Positions 12,877 through 62,109 of a stretch of DNA of 64,000 nucleotides are shown piece after piece. Numbering within the stretch: position 1 is the stretch's first letter; the number at the start of each line of letters is the position of its first letter. The stretch lies in the IMG/VR virus record IMGVR_UViG_3300017991_000056, positions 62,001 to 126,000 of that record; one strand, given 5' to 3'. The notes under the pieces are model-generated. The model searched no databases, was not told the DNA's origin, and saw only the letters and a program-made list of their open reading frames with translations. The position numbers and the translations under genes are program-made. Origin of the DNA: a virus.

Positions 12877-13404
12877 ATGAACGCCGAAAGCGCAGACAGG
12901 GCCGCGAAGGCCGTAGGGAAGCAGGATTTGCCGGGGCTGGCGGACGCGGTGATAGATGCCGGCGAGAAGTCGTACCAGGCGAACCTGGAGGCGATCAAGA
13001 GCCTGGTTGTTCTCGGAGACGAGGAGGGCGGAGCGAAGGCCCTCCGGGAGATGACGGATGGAATCGGCCCGTGGGCCAAGGCGTTCGAGGAGGTCGGCAA
13101 GGCGGCCGACGCTGCCGCCAAGACGATCCAGACGGCCCTTCGCGCGACTCCGGACCATGGACTCGGTCAGGAGCCTGGTGGAGGGGAACGCGATCGTCAA
13201 GAAGGCGGCGGAGGGGCTGGAGGCGGCTCGCAGGGAGCTGTTGCGACCTGGGCTGGCGGACGGGCGTCGAGAGGAGCTGCTCGAGGACATGCTGTTCTTC
13301 GCCGAGGCCGCGGGGAAGGCCGCGAAGGGCGCCGTCGGCGACGTGAGGGACCTCGGGAAGCGCGTAGAGGCTTGGATGAAGTAGGAAAACGACGATGCCT
13401 CTGA
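12877..13404 (+). CDS. Helical protein, first frame of a probable frameshifted gene
   Basis: ATG 12877 opens a charged helical protein (A-D-R-A-A-K-A-V-G-K...A-K-A-F-E-E-V-G-K-A-A-D-A-A-A-K-T-I-Q-T-A-L-R) that reads well for about 92 residues, to about 13150. Beyond that the same frame continues without a stop to 13404 but gives Gly/Arg-rich low-complexity sequence typical of an out-of-frame read. Sensible coding resumes exactly there in the +1 (equivalently -2) frame, so the two parts probably make one product of about 165 residues by frameshift, or an indel has broken the gene. Confidence 0.5.
   Translation: MNAESADRAAKAVGKQDLPGLADAVIDAGEKSYQANLEAIKSLVVLGDEEGGAKALREMTDGIGPWAKAFEEVGKAADAAAKTIQTALRATPDHGLGQEPGGGERDRQEGGGGAGGGSQGAVATWAGGRASRGAARGHAVLRRGRGEGREGRRRRREGPREARRGLDEVGKRRCL
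13157..13384 (+). CDS. Helical protein, second frame of the same probable frameshifted gene
   Basis: 75 aa if started at ATG 13157. The sequence S-V-R-S-L-V-E-G-N-A-I-V-K-K-A-A-E-G-L-E-A-A-R-R is helical and similar in style to the upstream frame. Upstream in this frame there is no ribosome site, supporting fusion to 12877 by frameshift. The preceding codons CGC GCG overlap a GCGCG string on which an alanine tRNA could re-pair after a -2 slip. It ends ten bases before the next gene. Confidence 0.45.
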   Translation: MDSVRSLVEGNAIVKKAAEGLEAARRELLRPGLADGRREELLEDMLFFAEAAGKAAKGAVGDVRDLGKRVEAWMK

Positions 13405-14201
13405 TAGACACGACAACGCTGCTGAAGATCGCCGACCGGGCGGCCGCGCAGTACAGGTACATCAATGACGCCTTCGCCCAGCTGAGCCAGGAGGGCGGGA
13501 GCTACTACTTCGACCTGGTCTCCCTGACGAACGATCCGGATGTGGAGATACCGTGCGACAGAAACTACCAGCTCGTCGATGACACGCTGGTCGACGAGGG
13601 AGCTCCCTTCGCCGCCCACCACGGGACGAGGATGGCGAACATCATCGGGTCCATGGAGGCCCATTTCAACAGGACGGACAACACCGGGACCGTGCTCCAG
13701 GCGGGTGGATGGGACGGCTACCTGACCGACCATGACGAGAGGGTGAGCTGGTGGTTCGCCGCCCTCTTCTACGCCGTCAAGTCGTACCGGATGCTGGCGA
13801 ACGACGTCTTCAGCGAGACCGACGACGTCTTCGCCACCCTGGAGATGCTGGCGGGTCCGACCCTGGACTTCACCGACGGGGTGAACTACGGGAACGGGAG
13901 CCAGCTCAATCCGGCGGACGGGAGCGACTACGCGGCGACGCAGCTCAAGGTCGTGGTTGACACCTTCGGGGCCTCCGACCTGGACATAAGGCTGGGCGTG
14001 AAGGACGTGGACGACCTTCCGACCACGATAGACGTGACGGTGCCGGGCGGCTCCGCGCCGGGAGCCGAAATCCCGGTCGGCGCGACGTCCAACAGGTTCC
14101 TGGACGTGATCGGGGCCTCCCTGATCCCGTTTGGGAGCTTCGGCACGCTCGGTGACAAGGTGACGGTCAACAACCTCAAGGAAAGACAGGTCTCCCTGTA
14201 G
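13395..14201 (+). CDS. Putative virion/tail structural protein
   Basis: 268 aa, ATG 13395 after GGAAAACGACG. Beta-rich, acidic, with W-W-F-A-A-L-F-Y-A-V-K-S-Y in the middle and a C-terminal region containing V-P-G-G-S-A-P-G-A-E-I-P-V. It resembles tail or neck structural proteins in composition. No named family. It is immediately followed by the first copy of a 27-bp leader repeat. Confidence 0.45.
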   Translation: MPLIDTTTLLKIADRAAAQYRYINDAFAQLSQEGGSYYFDLVSLTNDPDVEIPCDRNYQLVDDTLVDEGAPFAAHHGTRMANIIGSMEAHFNRTDNTGTVLQAGGWDGYLTDHDERVSWWFAALFYAVKSYRMLANDVFSETDDVFATLEMLAGPTLDFTDGVNYGNGSQLNPADGSDYAATQLKVVVDTFGASDLDIRLGVKDVDDLPTTIDVTVPGGSAPGAEIPVGATSNRFLDVIGASLIPFGSFGTLGDKVTVNNLKERQVSL

Positions 14202-14210
14202 GGGGCTGAA

Positions 14211-14237
14211 AAGGAGGATAGTGTCATGGGTATGGGT
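14211..14237 (+). repeat. 27-bp direct repeat, copy 1 (ribosome site plus ATGGGTATGGGT)
   Basis: Exact 27-base match to 15250-15276, starting AAGGAGGATAG and ending ATGGGTATGGGT. It carries a Shine-Dalgarno site and the first four codons (M-G-M-G) of the intron-split tail gene. The two copies bracket an ARE-module gene and a LAGLIDADG endonuclease gene. Confidence 0.9.
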
Positions 14238-14489
14238 CGCAAGCGCATAGCATGAGAGCTTCTCCGTGTGGTCCGCGAACTCGTAGGCAAGGACCTTGAG
14301 GTCAACAAGCTGAACAAGATAGAGACGCAGGTTCGCGTCGATGGAAAGCTCAAATACACGATCACGAAGGCCACCTACAGTCGTCCTGTGTATTACGATG
14401 TGACAGGGCTCGGCCCACGGGGAACGGTTCGGCAGTACAGTACCTACAAGGGTGCATTGAAAGCGATAGAGAAGGCTGAAGGGGTCTAG
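14226..14489 (+). pseudogene. ARE-module gene interrupted by an in-frame TGA
   Basis: From ATG 14226 (inside the repeat) the frame reads M-G-M-G-R-K-R-I-A, then TGA at 14253-14255, then E-L-L-R-V-V-R-E-L-V-G-K-D and continues open to TAG 14489. Replacing TGA by CGA restores the module R-I-A-R-E-L-L-R-V-V-R-E-L-V, so a C-to-T nonsense change is likely. Reinitiation at GTG 14268 would give a 73-aa product lacking most of the module. The C-terminal 60 residues form a small beta-rich domain. GC is lower than in neighbouring tail genes. It travels with the endonuclease gene downstream. Confidence 0.6.
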
Positions 14490-14492
14490 CGA

Positions 14493-15260
14493 GTGTTGAC
14501 CATCGGACAATTTGCTGAGCGCTCGGGTGTGCCGTATCACACCTTGAGGCGCCTTCAGGCAAGCGGCAAGCTGATGCCGTTGGTCGTTACTGATGGTGGT
14601 CATCGTCGCTATGAAGAGTGGCAGCTCGACGAGGCTGACAAGTACGTTCGACGCATGAAGTTGTTGCCGGGCGAGAGTGCGATCGGAAGTGAGCATCTGG
14701 AGCCCTTCTTCGCCTACTTGCTCGGCTTGGTTCTGGCTGACGGTACGATGTCCGACAGCGGTCAGGTTCAGATCGAGATGAAAGATGGAGCCTTCCTGCG
14801 AGAGGTCGGCAGGCATTTGAGTGCGGACGTCCATCCACGCAAGGGGCGTCCGATGTGGCAGATGACGGTGCCAGTGGCAGTCGCAAATAGGCTTTCTGAA
14901 TATAGAGTCTGCCCTCGGAAGGGAAAGACCGGCTTCGACATCCCATCGATGTCGAGAGTGTCATTCGGTCACTTCATTCGGGGGTTGTTTGACGGAGACG
15001 GAAGCGTCCATGTTGTATCGGAGTCGCGAGTGCGGCTCAGGTTTCATGGGCATTCGAGGCCGATGGGATGCTTGCAGAACACTTTCATGACAGAGTTCGG
15101 CTGGTATTTTCCATGGGTGAGAGATAAGAGAACTGCCGCAAGTGGGCAACTTGAGACGGGGAGGCATTCTGTCGTCTCCGGGCTTGGTGACCTCATGTAC
15201 TCCGCTGGCGGTGTGTGTCTGGCTCGAAAGAAGGACAAACTCATCCGAGAAGGAGGATAG
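14493..15260 (+). CDS. LAGLIDADG homing endonuclease with N-terminal MerR-like HTH
   Basis: 255 aa; the start codon lies three bases after the previous stop. Residues 1-30 (T-I-G-Q-F-A-E-R-S-G-V...L-R-R-L-Q-A-S-G-K-L) form a MerR/excisionase-type winged helix, and H-R-R-Y follows as in MerR proteins. Two LAGLIDADG helices follow: Y-L-L-G-L-V-L-A-D-G-T-M near residue 75 and F-I-R-G-L-F-D-G-D-G-S-V near residue 165, each with its acidic catalytic residue. The stop codon lies in the ribosome site of the split tail gene, immediately upstream of a group I intron. The enzyme probably cleaves at the intron-insertion site or the equivalent exon. Lower GC suggests recent arrival. Confidence 0.85.
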   Translation: MLTIGQFAERSGVPYHTLRRLQASGKLMPLVVTDGGHRRYEEWQLDEADKYVRRMKLLPGESAIGSEHLEPFFAYLLGLVLADGTMSDSGQVQIEMKDGAFLREVGRHLSADVHPRKGRPMWQMTVPVAVANRLSEYRVCPRKGKTGFDIPSMSRVSFGHFIRGLFDGDGSVHVVSESRVRLRFHGHSRPMGCLQNTFMTEFGWYFPWVRDKRTAASGQLETGRHSVVSGLGDLMYSAGGVCLARKKDKLIREGG

Positions 15261-15276
15261 TGTCATGGGTATGGGT
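15250..15276 (+). repeat. 27-bp direct repeat, copy 2 (leader and exon 1 of tail gene)
   Basis: Exact match to 14211-14237. It ends one base before the predicted 5' splice site (15277/15278), so the repeat boundary nearly coincides with the intron-insertion point. Here it functions as the true leader and first four codons of the tail gene. Confidence 0.9.
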
Positions 15277-16625
15277 TAGATTTTGACCCATCTCACCCTG
15301 TCTAATTGACTTGGAAGCCCAGAGGTGGGCGACAAGGCGGAAGCAAGGCAGTCACTAGCCTGGGCGCCGTGAACGACTGAGCGACAGGGACCATCAGACA
15401 GCGAAACGCTACCCGGCGGTTGCTGATGGTATGCGACAGTCTGGACTCCCCTATAACCGTACTGAAGGGGGAGAGGGTTGGCCGAAGAGCCGATCCCGCC
15501 ATCGAAAGATGGTTAGTAGGCGCAAGCCGAAAGTAACAGATCGATCAGGCATTTGCTCGCTTCTACAAGACTGGGCCAGCAACCGATCCGCTGCTCGTCC
15601 TCGCGACGGGTGCCGGCGTCAACCTCGTCCTGGAGCCGATCTACTCCACCTCCGTATGGGGCGCGGGCTGGTACAACGCTGCGTCGTCCGCGCATTACGC
15701 CGACAGCGCGATCCGGTTCGAGGGCAACATCGACTTCGAGCTCCAGGGCTCGGACGACATCTGGGATCTTCTCGGGAACTGGATCGTCAACGAGAGGGCC
15801 TATCCGAAGTCCATGGACATCTCGCCGGACGGCGCGAGGGTCTACGAGTACCACACGACCGGCGTCTATGGCGCCAACTTCGACCTGAACGGCATGTGGA
15901 ACACGAGCGCGGGCTTCTCCACGAGCCAGGGGTCGTTCGTGACGGTGAGCGCGGGGGCCATCGCCCTGGACAGGGACGAGGTGGACCCGGCCGGGGGCAC
16001 GGACTTCGGGGACTACTCCTACATCGACCAGAAGGAGGGCGTCGTCGCCGACGACTGCACCGAGCTGGCGGAAACGAACCCGCTGAACCCGAGCGGCAAC
16101 AATGTCGACCCCCTCCCGTTCTGGAGGACGGACGCGCAGCTGCTCACGGGCGTTTACTCGGCGCCCTTCACGGGGGGCGCCGTCCCGCAGGCCGACACGG
16201 AGACGGTGGAGTGGAGCGTGGACGTGACCCAGAACCACGTGGTTCTCTACACCTGCAACGGCAGCCGTCTCGCGACGGCGCTCCTTCAGGGGGCCATCGA
16301 CGCGACGGGCTCCGTCACGCTCTACAACGAGGATGGCGTCTTCGACCCGATTCTCGGGCCGGCGCACACGGGAAGCCTCACGGCTCCGTACCTCTACGCC
16401 GAGAACACCTGGTTCCGGGTGAGCATCCCGCGCGGAGCGGACCCGACGGTCTACATCGAGCTGCCGGCGGTCGTGGTGGAGTCTGACGACTACAGCATTC
16501 CGGGTCAGTCGGACGTCTCCTATCGGACGTTCGGGATCAAGGGCCTCGGCGGCCGCTGCAACAGCGCGGTCACGATGCCTCCGATGATCATGTCCGACAG
16601 CGCCGGCCTGTTCGTCGCTCCGTAA
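15265..16625 (+). CDS. Tail structural protein, gene split by a group I intron (exons 15265-15277 and 15544-16625)
   Basis: Exon 1 is ATG GGT ATG GGT T. Joined to exon 2 at 15544 it gives M-G-M-G-Y-Q-A-F-A-R-F, about 364 residues in total. The next gene starts M-G-I-G-Y-E-G-W-A-K-L, so the predicted splice regenerates the N-terminus of a paralogue. Without splicing, exon 2 has no good start until ATG 15813, and the obviously coding stretch from 15543 (Y-K-T-G-P-A-T-D-P-L-L-V-L) would be lost. The protein is beta-rich and acidic, with W-x-V-D-V-T-Q in the second half, like the next gene. Probably a tail tube or tail-associated protein. Confidence 0.75.
15278..15543 (+). ncRNA. Group I intron
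   Basis: About 266 nt with a recognisable core. P1: exon ATGGGTT (15271-15277) pairs with GACCCAT (15285-15291), leaving the required U.G wobble at the splice site. P3: CCCTGTC (15296-15302) with GACAGGG (15383-15389). P4 candidate: GCCCAG (15317-15322) with CTGGGC (15360-15365). P7: GACTG (15375-15379) with CAGTC (15437-15441). P8: ACCATCAG (15390-15397) with CTGATGGT (15423-15430). P9: CTCCCC (15446-15451) with GGGGAG (15468-15473). A GAAA-capped hairpin CCATC/GATGG follows. The last base is G (15543). It contains no ORF; the nearby endonuclease gene is just upstream. Confidence 0.85.
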
Positions 16626-16640
16626 CATGAGGGTGCCGGC

Positions 16641-17528
16641 ATGGGAATCGGCTACGAGGGCTGGGCGAAGCTGAAGGTCGACGCGGTCGAGGACCTGTTC
16701 CTCTGCACCGGGGCGGCCAACCCGAAGCGCCGCGTCCGTCTCGAGTCGTCGTCGGGTTACGGCGGCCAGATCAAGCTCCCCGTCGACGAGATCGGCATAG
16801 GGACTCCCAGGAACTACGACTGGGAGTCCTTCGACGGCTCCCTGGGCTTCGACGTCACCCAGGACCTGGTCACCAATCAGATCAAGCCGTGGATATTCGC
16901 CCGCCAGAAGGCGGCCCAGACCACGATGAGGACCAGGAAGGACAACGTCCAGCAGTTCGACAACTGCTACTGGAACAACATCAGCCTGACGGCTGGCGAC
17001 GGCTCCCTGGTGACGGGGTCCATAGGCTACGTGGCGATCCAGAGGGACTCCTACGTTCAGGGCGGCGACTACGTCGACGACAAGACGGGCGACGGGTACC
17101 TTTGCGATCCCGGCGTCCTGAACGTGCCGGAGCCGCTGGGGATAGACATGAACGAGTCCCCGATCCCGTTCTGGAACAGCTCGGTGGAGGTGGACGGCGA
17201 CGTCCTGGACTTCGTGACGTGGACGCTTGACTTCTCGCAGGAAGTGGTCAAGTTCTTCTCGTGCGAGGCGAGCTCGGTCCCGGCCGAGCCGAGGTTCATA
17301 GCGGTGGGTCCCATGACGGTGACGTTCACGGGGGACTACTTCTTTGCCGCGACGACGCCGACGCCGTGGGACATCCCGGACACCTTGGCGACCTTGACAG
17401 TGAACATAGCCGGGGAGACTATCGATTTGGCGAACCTTGAGCTTTCGACGGACGCCGACGACGTGAGGGGCCAGAACGACCCGACCGTCATTGCCGTCGA
17501 CTACGCCGCGTACGAGCTGGTGGCGTGA
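16641..17528 (+). CDS. Tail structural protein, paralogue of the intron-split gene
   Basis: 295 aa, ATG 16641. It starts M-G-I-G-Y-E-G-W-A-K-L and shares with the previous protein the overall plan: an N-terminal G-Y motif, a central stretch with S-x-G-F-D-V-T-Q and a C-terminal beta domain. This suggests a duplicated tail-tube or tail-ornament gene. Its N-terminus provides the key control for the intron prediction. No named family identified. Confidence 0.55.
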   Translation: MGIGYEGWAKLKVDAVEDLFLCTGAANPKRRVRLESSSGYGGQIKLPVDEIGIGTPRNYDWESFDGSLGFDVTQDLVTNQIKPWIFARQKAAQTTMRTRKDNVQQFDNCYWNNISLTAGDGSLVTGSIGYVAIQRDSYVQGGDYVDDKTGDGYLCDPGVLNVPEPLGIDMNESPIPFWNSSVEVDGDVLDFVTWTLDFSQEVVKFFSCEASSVPAEPRFIAVGPMTVTFTGDYFFAATTPTPWDIPDTLATLTVNIAGETIDLANLELSTDADDVRGQNDPTVIAVDYAAYELVA

Positions 17529-61212: not shown

Positions 61213-62109
61213 ATGAAGACCCCGACGTTCCCGTTCACGCACGAGTCGGTCCAGGAGGAGCTGTGCGACAGGAGGCTGACGCTGGCGCGCAACATAAAGG
61301 GGAACTCGTACTACCGAAGGATGGGCAGCCTGACGCTGACGCACCCGGGGGACTGGGATGTCGACGGGGGCGCTCTCCTGGTCCTGGACCAGAAGGACCG
61401 GGTGCTGCACCGCCTCGACGGCCTGGAGGCGGGGTACGGCGGCTGCCGGATCGTCGGGGAGGACGTGACGAGCGCAAGCTCGAAAGGTTTCGCCCGGGTC
61501 GCCATCTGGCCGTACGAGCCTCTCGGGACCGACTTCTCGGTGGCGGTGTCGAGCCATGTCGACTATCACGAGCAGACGATGCCGCGGCTGCTGAAGTCGC
61601 TGGCCAGGGCCGGGGTGGAGTCCGGAGACGTCGAGGTTGTCGTCTGCGGGGCCAGGAAGGACCCGAGGGAGGAGGAGCGTGACGGTGTCAGGTTCGTCTT
61701 CGTCCCGTGGGACATGCAGGGCTTCGCGGGGCTGGCGGCAGAGGGGAAAGGGAACAAGTACGTCCTTCTGCTGCACGACACGTGCTCGGTCGACGAGGGC
61801 TTCGCCGAGAGGGTGATGGCGGTGGACGTGGGCGTCCCGCATGACATCATCCTGGCGTCGAACGACAACGAGATTGGACTCTACTCGTCGTGGCTGACCG
61901 GCCAGCTGTCGCTGGAGGACGCGAAGCCGAAGGGTTTCATGAAGCGGCTCAGGCAGATCGCGAGGTCGTGGTCCGTCATGGAGGGGGCGAGACGGAGCCT
62001 CGGGGAGAAGGATGTCTACGGGGGCGGCGTGAAGAGGGAGGTGGTGGCGTACGACGGGCTCGGCGTGAGGAAGTTCTTCGGCGTCTCGGAGTCGGGGGGA
62101 AGGCCGTGA
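61213..62109 (+). CDS. Hypothetical protein in the sugar cluster
   Basis: 298 aa, ATG 61213. N-terminal half unclear. The second half reads S-V-A-V-S-S-H-V-D-Y-H-E-Q-T-M-P-R-L-L-K-S-L, then Y-V-L-L-L-H-D-T-C, which loosely resembles GT2-type folds with a D-T-C in place of DxD. Could be a glycosyltransferase or a carbohydrate-modifying enzyme; low certainty. Confidence 0.45.
   Translation: MKTPTFPFTHESVQEELCDRRLTLARNIKGNSYYRRMGSLTLTHPGDWDVDGGALLVLDQKDRVLHRLDGLEAGYGGCRIVGEDVTSASSKGFARVAIWPYEPLGTDFSVAVSSHVDYHEQTMPRLLKSLARAGVESGDVEVVVCGARKDPREEERDGVRFVFVPWDMQGFAGLAAEGKGNKYVLLLHDTCSVDEGFAERVMAVDVGVPHDIILASNDNEIGLYSSWLTGQLSLEDAKPKGFMKRLRQIARSWSVMEGARRSLGEKDVYGGGVKREVVAYDGLGVRKFFGVSESGGRP

Follow-up and report, generated by a model that had tools for sequence, protein, structure and literature searches.

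A LAGLIDADG endonuclease gene and a predicted ORF-less group I intron at the duplicated start of a phage tail gene

RESULTS

The stretch of DNA analysed, referred to here as the window, comprises 64,000 nt of a viral record (IMGVR_UViG_3300017991_000056, positions 62,001–126,000), and coordinates without a prefix are positions in the window. A structural gene (13395–14201, from the ORF list; plus strand, as are the leaders, open frames, intron and tail gene exons that follow it), which is conserved in relatives, forms the left flank of the insertion and precedes the leader in uninserted relatives too. The 27-nt sequence AAGGAGGATAGTGTCATGGGTATGGGT is present as an exact direct repeat at 14211–14237 (copy 1) and 15250–15276 (copy 2), with a spacing of 1039 bp; extended 3 nt leftward, the repeat retains 29/30 identity. 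A 23-nt probe, with up to three mismatches allowed, found it at these two places only in the 133-kb record, the reversed control giving 0 matches, and a chance match is excluded for an exact 27-bp repeat at this spacing. Each copy consists of AAGGAGG, an 8-nt spacer and ATGGGTATGGGT, the first 12 nt of the tail gene, which confirms the claim of a preliminary description of this locus that two exact 27-bp repeats carry the ribosome site and the tail gene start. Copy 1 lies directly after the structural gene, where uninserted relatives have their single leader, and stops after nt 12 of the tail gene, adjoining the intron site after nt 13; copy 2 is the start of the tail gene. The GC content is 0.55–0.57 in the ARE-type ORF, nuclease gene and intron described below (0.55–0.56 for the cassette), compared with 0.64–0.66 in the flanking genes.

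Continuing from copy 1, as judged from the sequence, the ORF list and a comparison of modules, is an ARE-type frame (14226–14489) that is open from a GTG at 14268, giving a 73-aa ORF (14268–14489) between the repeat copies. The frame is in register with the ATGGGTATGGGT of copy 1 and reads MGMGRKRIA-stop-ELLRVVRELVG..., matching six other ARE-type modules of the phage. Because the TGA at 14253–14255 (codon 10) interrupts the module, the ORF has either decayed or begun at the downstream GTG, and it is not clearly an intact gene. The preliminary description had placed both an ARE-module gene and a MerR-HTH/LAGLIDADG gene between the repeats; the nuclease gene stands, but the ARE-type frame cannot be retained as an intact gene. 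No relatives of the ARE-type ORF were found in viral contigs. The module itself, (K/R)xxAxELxxxAREL/V, occurs in seven otherwise different ORFs of the phage (window positions 793, 7220, 8289, 9730, 11424, 11909 and 14232), mostly near the N-terminus of the ORF.

The remainder of the interval is occupied by a free-standing homing endonuclease gene (14493–15260) whose stop codon falls inside the Shine–Dalgarno region of copy 2. Its 255-aa product matches Pfam MerR (E 1.8e-9), representing a MerR-type helix–turn–helix (HTH) domain, and LAGLIDADG_3 (PF14528; E 8.2e-8), as well as PDB entry 2dch (E 0.0012), and it has a homologue with 54% identity at locus L015, described below. The LAGLIDADG motifs are LLGLVLADGT and IRGLFDGDGS, and the acidic residues D83 and D169 are conserved with the L015 enzyme. 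An AlphaFold model built from two sequences (mean pLDDT 52) has an order of elements that is no more than compatible with the two-domain alpha/beta LAGLIDADG fold and is too poor for a fold search. Genome contigs contained no relatives of the nuclease, and GenBank phages a single endonuclease, 29% identical to it. The MerR-like HTH also occurs in IS607-type proteins. A transposon with target-site duplication was considered and rejected, as no inverted repeats were found at the ends of the cassette and a transposase domain is lacking. Outside the window, an 832-aa open frame contains a further LAGLIDADG_3 match (G000:C1:48577–48774; 30.2 bits), which is possibly an intein.

Between copy 2 and the main body of the tail gene lies a 266-nt element (15278–15543) within which there is no endonuclease ORF. 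Its guide, GACCCAT (15285–15291), pairs with exon ATGGGTT, with U.G at the 5' splice site, and the element ends in a G at 15543. The intron borders derived here place the splice after 15277, one base beyond the end of copy 2, in agreement with the preliminary description. The 5' exon is thus a 13-nt exon 1 (15265–15277; MGMG plus T), made up of ATGGGTATGGGT and a T, and exon 2 runs from 15544 to 16625; predicted splicing would give MGMGYQAFARF, restoring the Tyr-Gln conserved in relatives. As had been proposed, the downstream gene should therefore stay translatable, copy 2 providing the start and the predicted splice restoring the frame. Exon 2 is tail-tube-like, although its Pfam match, to Phage_tube_2 (E 2.5e-4), scores 21.2 bits and falls short of the curated cut-off of 27. 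No relatives of the tail gene were found in genome contigs or GenBank phages. The product of the next gene (16641–17528) begins with MGIGYEGW, which is similar to the tail gene start MGMGYQGF, and the gene is possibly a paralogue of the tail gene.

The 266-nt element was aligned with members of its family from viral contigs (16 family members in the alignment). The alignment supports helices P3, P4, P5, P6, P7, P8 and P9, of which P3 and P7 cross, together with further 3' helices; 93.7% of cells are paired and double changes occur in 29 of 49 pairs. Compensatory cells number 126, compared with 38.8 in shuffled alignments (0 of 500 shuffles reach the observed value) and at most 44 in slid controls, and the covariation score is 0.474, as against 0.172 or less for slid versions. 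A guide base also changes together with the third base of codon 4 (GGT/A in the window, GGA/U in L015 and GGG/C in L005). A search of Rfam with the window and the intron gave no match up to E = 10, which is taken as insensitivity of the models, given the structure, splice-site pairing and covariation; on this comparative evidence the element is assigned as a group I intron despite the lack of an Rfam match. The sequence CCGCCATYGAAARATGGTYA is common to a widespread phage group I intron family (L020–L065, 46 viral contigs), six scanned loci of which, like the window, had no Rfam match. In one member, L031, the intron core TCTCTGATTGACTTGGAA (or its last 15 nt) recurs at distances of approximately 1195 and 1577 bp on the upstream side, which suggests that the region holds several introns of the family. 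A pattern scan with exon 1 and the guide returned 45 new contigs, none with an intron.

A tail-protein search yielded 16 related loci, to which the window was added in the counts of nuclease genes and introns. Twelve of the 16 (11 distinct) are without insert, the upstream gene being followed by a gap of 16–148 nt with one leader and then by MGMGYQG or MAMGYMG; these are uninserted relatives of the kind the preliminary description had proposed to look for, in which a single leader runs straight into the tail gene. A duplicated leader without the cassette, which it had named as evidence against its model, was seen in none of the 16, and two leaders are present in the window only, among the loci compared. 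The remaining four loci (L005, L007, L012 and L015) have an intron at the tail gene start. Two of these, L005 and L007, have no nuclease gene. In L015, the MerR–LAGLIDADG enzyme gene follows the upstream gene and precedes the only leader, with the intron at the same site as in the window, and in L012 the enzyme encoded at this place belongs to a different Pfam family, LAGLIDADG_2 (E 2.5e-12). A nuclease gene just 5' of the leader is therefore found at three of the five intron loci, window included, and at none of the 11 intronless loci (Fisher p = 0.018). The introns of the window, L005 and L015 group in one clade (support 95), with insertion after nt 13; those of the window and L015 both adjoin MerR enzymes. 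The L007 and L012 introns pair with each other (support 72–74), and their insertion site is after nt 12. Exact repeats of at least 13 nt of the 5' exon region were sought within 3 kb upstream of 24 other introns of the family and none was found at an exon, so that the family as such is not characterized by the duplication. The leaders of most other relatives differ from the window copies at no fewer than 4 of the 15 positions preceding the ATG; identical 15-nt leaders (15/15) do occur in different phages, namely in L006 and L007 and in L002 and L018. No donor genome for the window's block was found among the loci retrieved.

L012 and L015 are 99–100% identical over most of the upstream gene and, in exon 2, beyond roughly its first 75 nt. 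The block between these parts, which begins about 120 nt ahead of the upstream gene's stop, is where they differ, and the nuclease gene, leader and intron in it are all different. Exchange of these three as one block, together with some 75 nt of exon 2, is what collaborative homing predicts and what a break repaired at the intron site would leave, and it indicates that nuclease gene, leader and intron change together by co-conversion. This block inheritance is shown specifically for the L012/L015 pair. In near-identical phages, two LAGLIDADG families thus occupy one spot (L012:5038–5718 and L015:4956–5771). Only the first 11 codons of the L012 enzyme gene are those of the L015-type gene, a trace of the replacement of one nuclease by another. 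At its 3' end the L015 nuclease frame (L015:5712–5771) lacks a stop codon ahead of the leader and continues across the leader and exon 1 into the intron. A dip in GC3 at the start of exon 2 in the window was dropped as evidence of co-conversion, since 3 of 48 other genes and the uninserted loci L010 and L018 show the same.

DISCUSSION

The preliminary description had proposed a homing-type cassette at an intron site, mobilized by collaborative homing of nuclease and intron. The nuclease gene (14493–15260) is indeed located beside the intron (15278–15543), and the empty sites, the distribution of nuclease genes over intron and intronless loci and the block exchange between L012 and L015 lend the model further support from sequence comparison. 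The description also took the repeat for the target duplicated during repair; as an obligatory duplication this could not be upheld: L015 has both nuclease gene and intron with one leader, so the cassette neither needs the repeat nor always makes it.

From the repeat, the cassette, the intron structure, the splice frame, the empty sites and the exchange of nuclease gene, leader and intron as a block in relatives, all of them observed, we infer a target for the enzyme, a repair route and splicing in vivo. Our working hypothesis, which is the simplest account and which we consider reasonably probable, is that one-sided break repair copied the intron, leader, nuclease gene and ARE-type ORF from a donor and that these were joined to the leader and 12 nt retained by the recipient. 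The enzyme is predicted to cut the intronless allele (ATGGGNATGGGNTAYCARGG) at or beside the intron site, repair from a donor would bring in nuclease gene, leader and intron, and the inserted intron would split the target and protect the allele from cutting. In the event proposed for the window, the right break end would have paired with donor exon 2, with synthesis proceeding leftward through the intron, exon 1, leader, nuclease gene and ARE-type ORF, and the new end would have been attached, either non-homologously or through microhomology, to the recipient's own left end, on which its leader and 12 nt of the gene were retained. Copy 1 is thus probably the recipient's original leader and copy 2 probably derived from the donor, and the start in copy 2 together with intron splicing would keep the gene working. 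Because the ARE-type frame runs on from copy 1 in the manner of the six other modules, its sequence suggests that the repair join fell at the start of the ARE gene.

Points that weigh against this hypothesis are that the duplication is seen at one locus only and that no donor genome was found among the loci retrieved, and other origins of the repeat must be considered. The identical 27 nt could have come from copying within one genome, if the nuclease cut beside the intron site, the ARE–nuclease cassette arrived from elsewhere and the leader was copied twice from the recipient during repair of the break. The perfect match of the copies (27/27), when most other relatives' leaders differ by at least 4 of 15 nt, and the end of copy 2 one base from the intron site would both fit; however, L015 represents a ready-made donor arrangement of nuclease gene, single leader and intron, and since different phages (L006/L007 and L002/L018) share identical leaders, identity of the copies needs no copying within a genome. 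We regard this origin as unlikely. It is also quite unlikely, in our view, that the cassette carries an extra 5' end of the gene (a ribosome site with four codons) as functional design and not as a scar, although if it did, insertion exactly at its own cut site would leave the tail gene expressed before or without the intron, and the locus would represent an intermediate stage on the way to a collaborative homing module.

Independent events, in which the nuclease gene and ARE-type ORF arrived by ordinary recombination, the intron separately and the leader became duplicated incidentally, would be in keeping with the two of five intron loci that have no nuclease gene and with the frequent location of free-standing nucleases near, and not at, their own cut sites (PMC10448857). 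We find this decidedly unlikely, as it accounts neither for the confinement of nuclease genes to intron loci (p = 0.018) nor for the joint exchange of nuclease and intron between L012 and L015, nor again for the end of copy 1 within 1 nt of the intron site. A composite intron, with copy 1 as a distal 5' splice site, splicing that removes a 1.3-kb block and a duplication kept for two modes of expression, has in its favour the stronger pairing of copy 1 with the guide (-12.5 compared with -10.9 kcal/mol) and a distal splice that is in frame (MGMGHQAF); yet copy 1 has C-G at the splice site instead of the group I U.G pair, P1 must close over about 1 kb and His replaces the conserved Tyr, which makes this explanation very unlikely. 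Finally, two strain variants might have been joined artificially, as the sequence comes from a metagenomic contig and assembly is vulnerable at a 27-bp repeat, but a graph assembler needs the junction of ATGGGTATGGGT with CGCAAG to be present in reads, GC shifts at the repeat and, copy 1 and the ARE-type ORF aside, this gene order recurs in a relative; an assembly artefact is highly unlikely.

The locus is close to known systems of collaborative homing, namely F-CphI and the psbA intron of cyanophage S-PM2 (PMC6083498) and the similar arrangement at the ICP1 terminase (PMC10448857). As in these, there is a free-standing nuclease gene beside an exon and a group I intron in the target gene, the intron being proposed to block self-cleavage. 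The presence of an adjacent free-standing nuclease gene, an ORF-less intron and, in relatives, inheritance as a unit suggests that the module works in the same way, with cleavage predicted. The nucleases of those systems, however, are of the Endo VII type or T5orf172, whereas that of the window is a LAGLIDADG enzyme with a MerR-type HTH; the target here is the start of a tail gene, and the nuclease gene stands between two copies of the leader and the gene's first 12 nt.

Duplicated gene ends are also known from fungal mitochondrial mobile ORFs that carry a duplicated C-terminus (Allomyces atp6; Glomus atp6, atp9, cox2 and nad3; PMC3630166). In both cases an endonuclease gene inserted in a protein gene is accompanied by a replacement copy of one gene end and the host gene survives, but here the 5' end is involved (ribosome site and only four codons), in a phage and beside a group I intron at the same site, and by this comparison the fungal hybrids appear as an analogue of the window locus and not as the same class. 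Trans homing by T4 MobE, which acts on the nrdB intron with its defunct I-TevIII (PMC2988022), likewise involves a free-standing enzyme that mobilizes a neighbouring intron, although the T4 intron keeps its defunct nuclease ORF and a leader duplication is not described there. One-sided illegitimate repair at microhomologies has been documented for phage T4 introns (1999 work, as described in PMC2988022). Homology in one exon with an illegitimate junction on the other side is the route proposed here; the T4 junctions arose in an experimental system, whereas that in the window is natural and its origin is deduced.

It is not clear by what path free-standing nucleases and introns acquire a common target (PMC10448857). 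In the phages compared here, one tail gene start is found empty, with an intron only, with intron and nuclease gene, with the nuclease gene swapped for one of another family, and with intron, nuclease gene and a duplicated gene start; given this range of states, the order in which events occurred and the route of repair can be tested. The collaborative homing arrangement would also be extended to LAGLIDADG enzymes, one of them with a MerR-type DNA-binding domain, neither domain being present in the collaborative homing cases compared (F-CphI/psbA and the ICP1 terminase).
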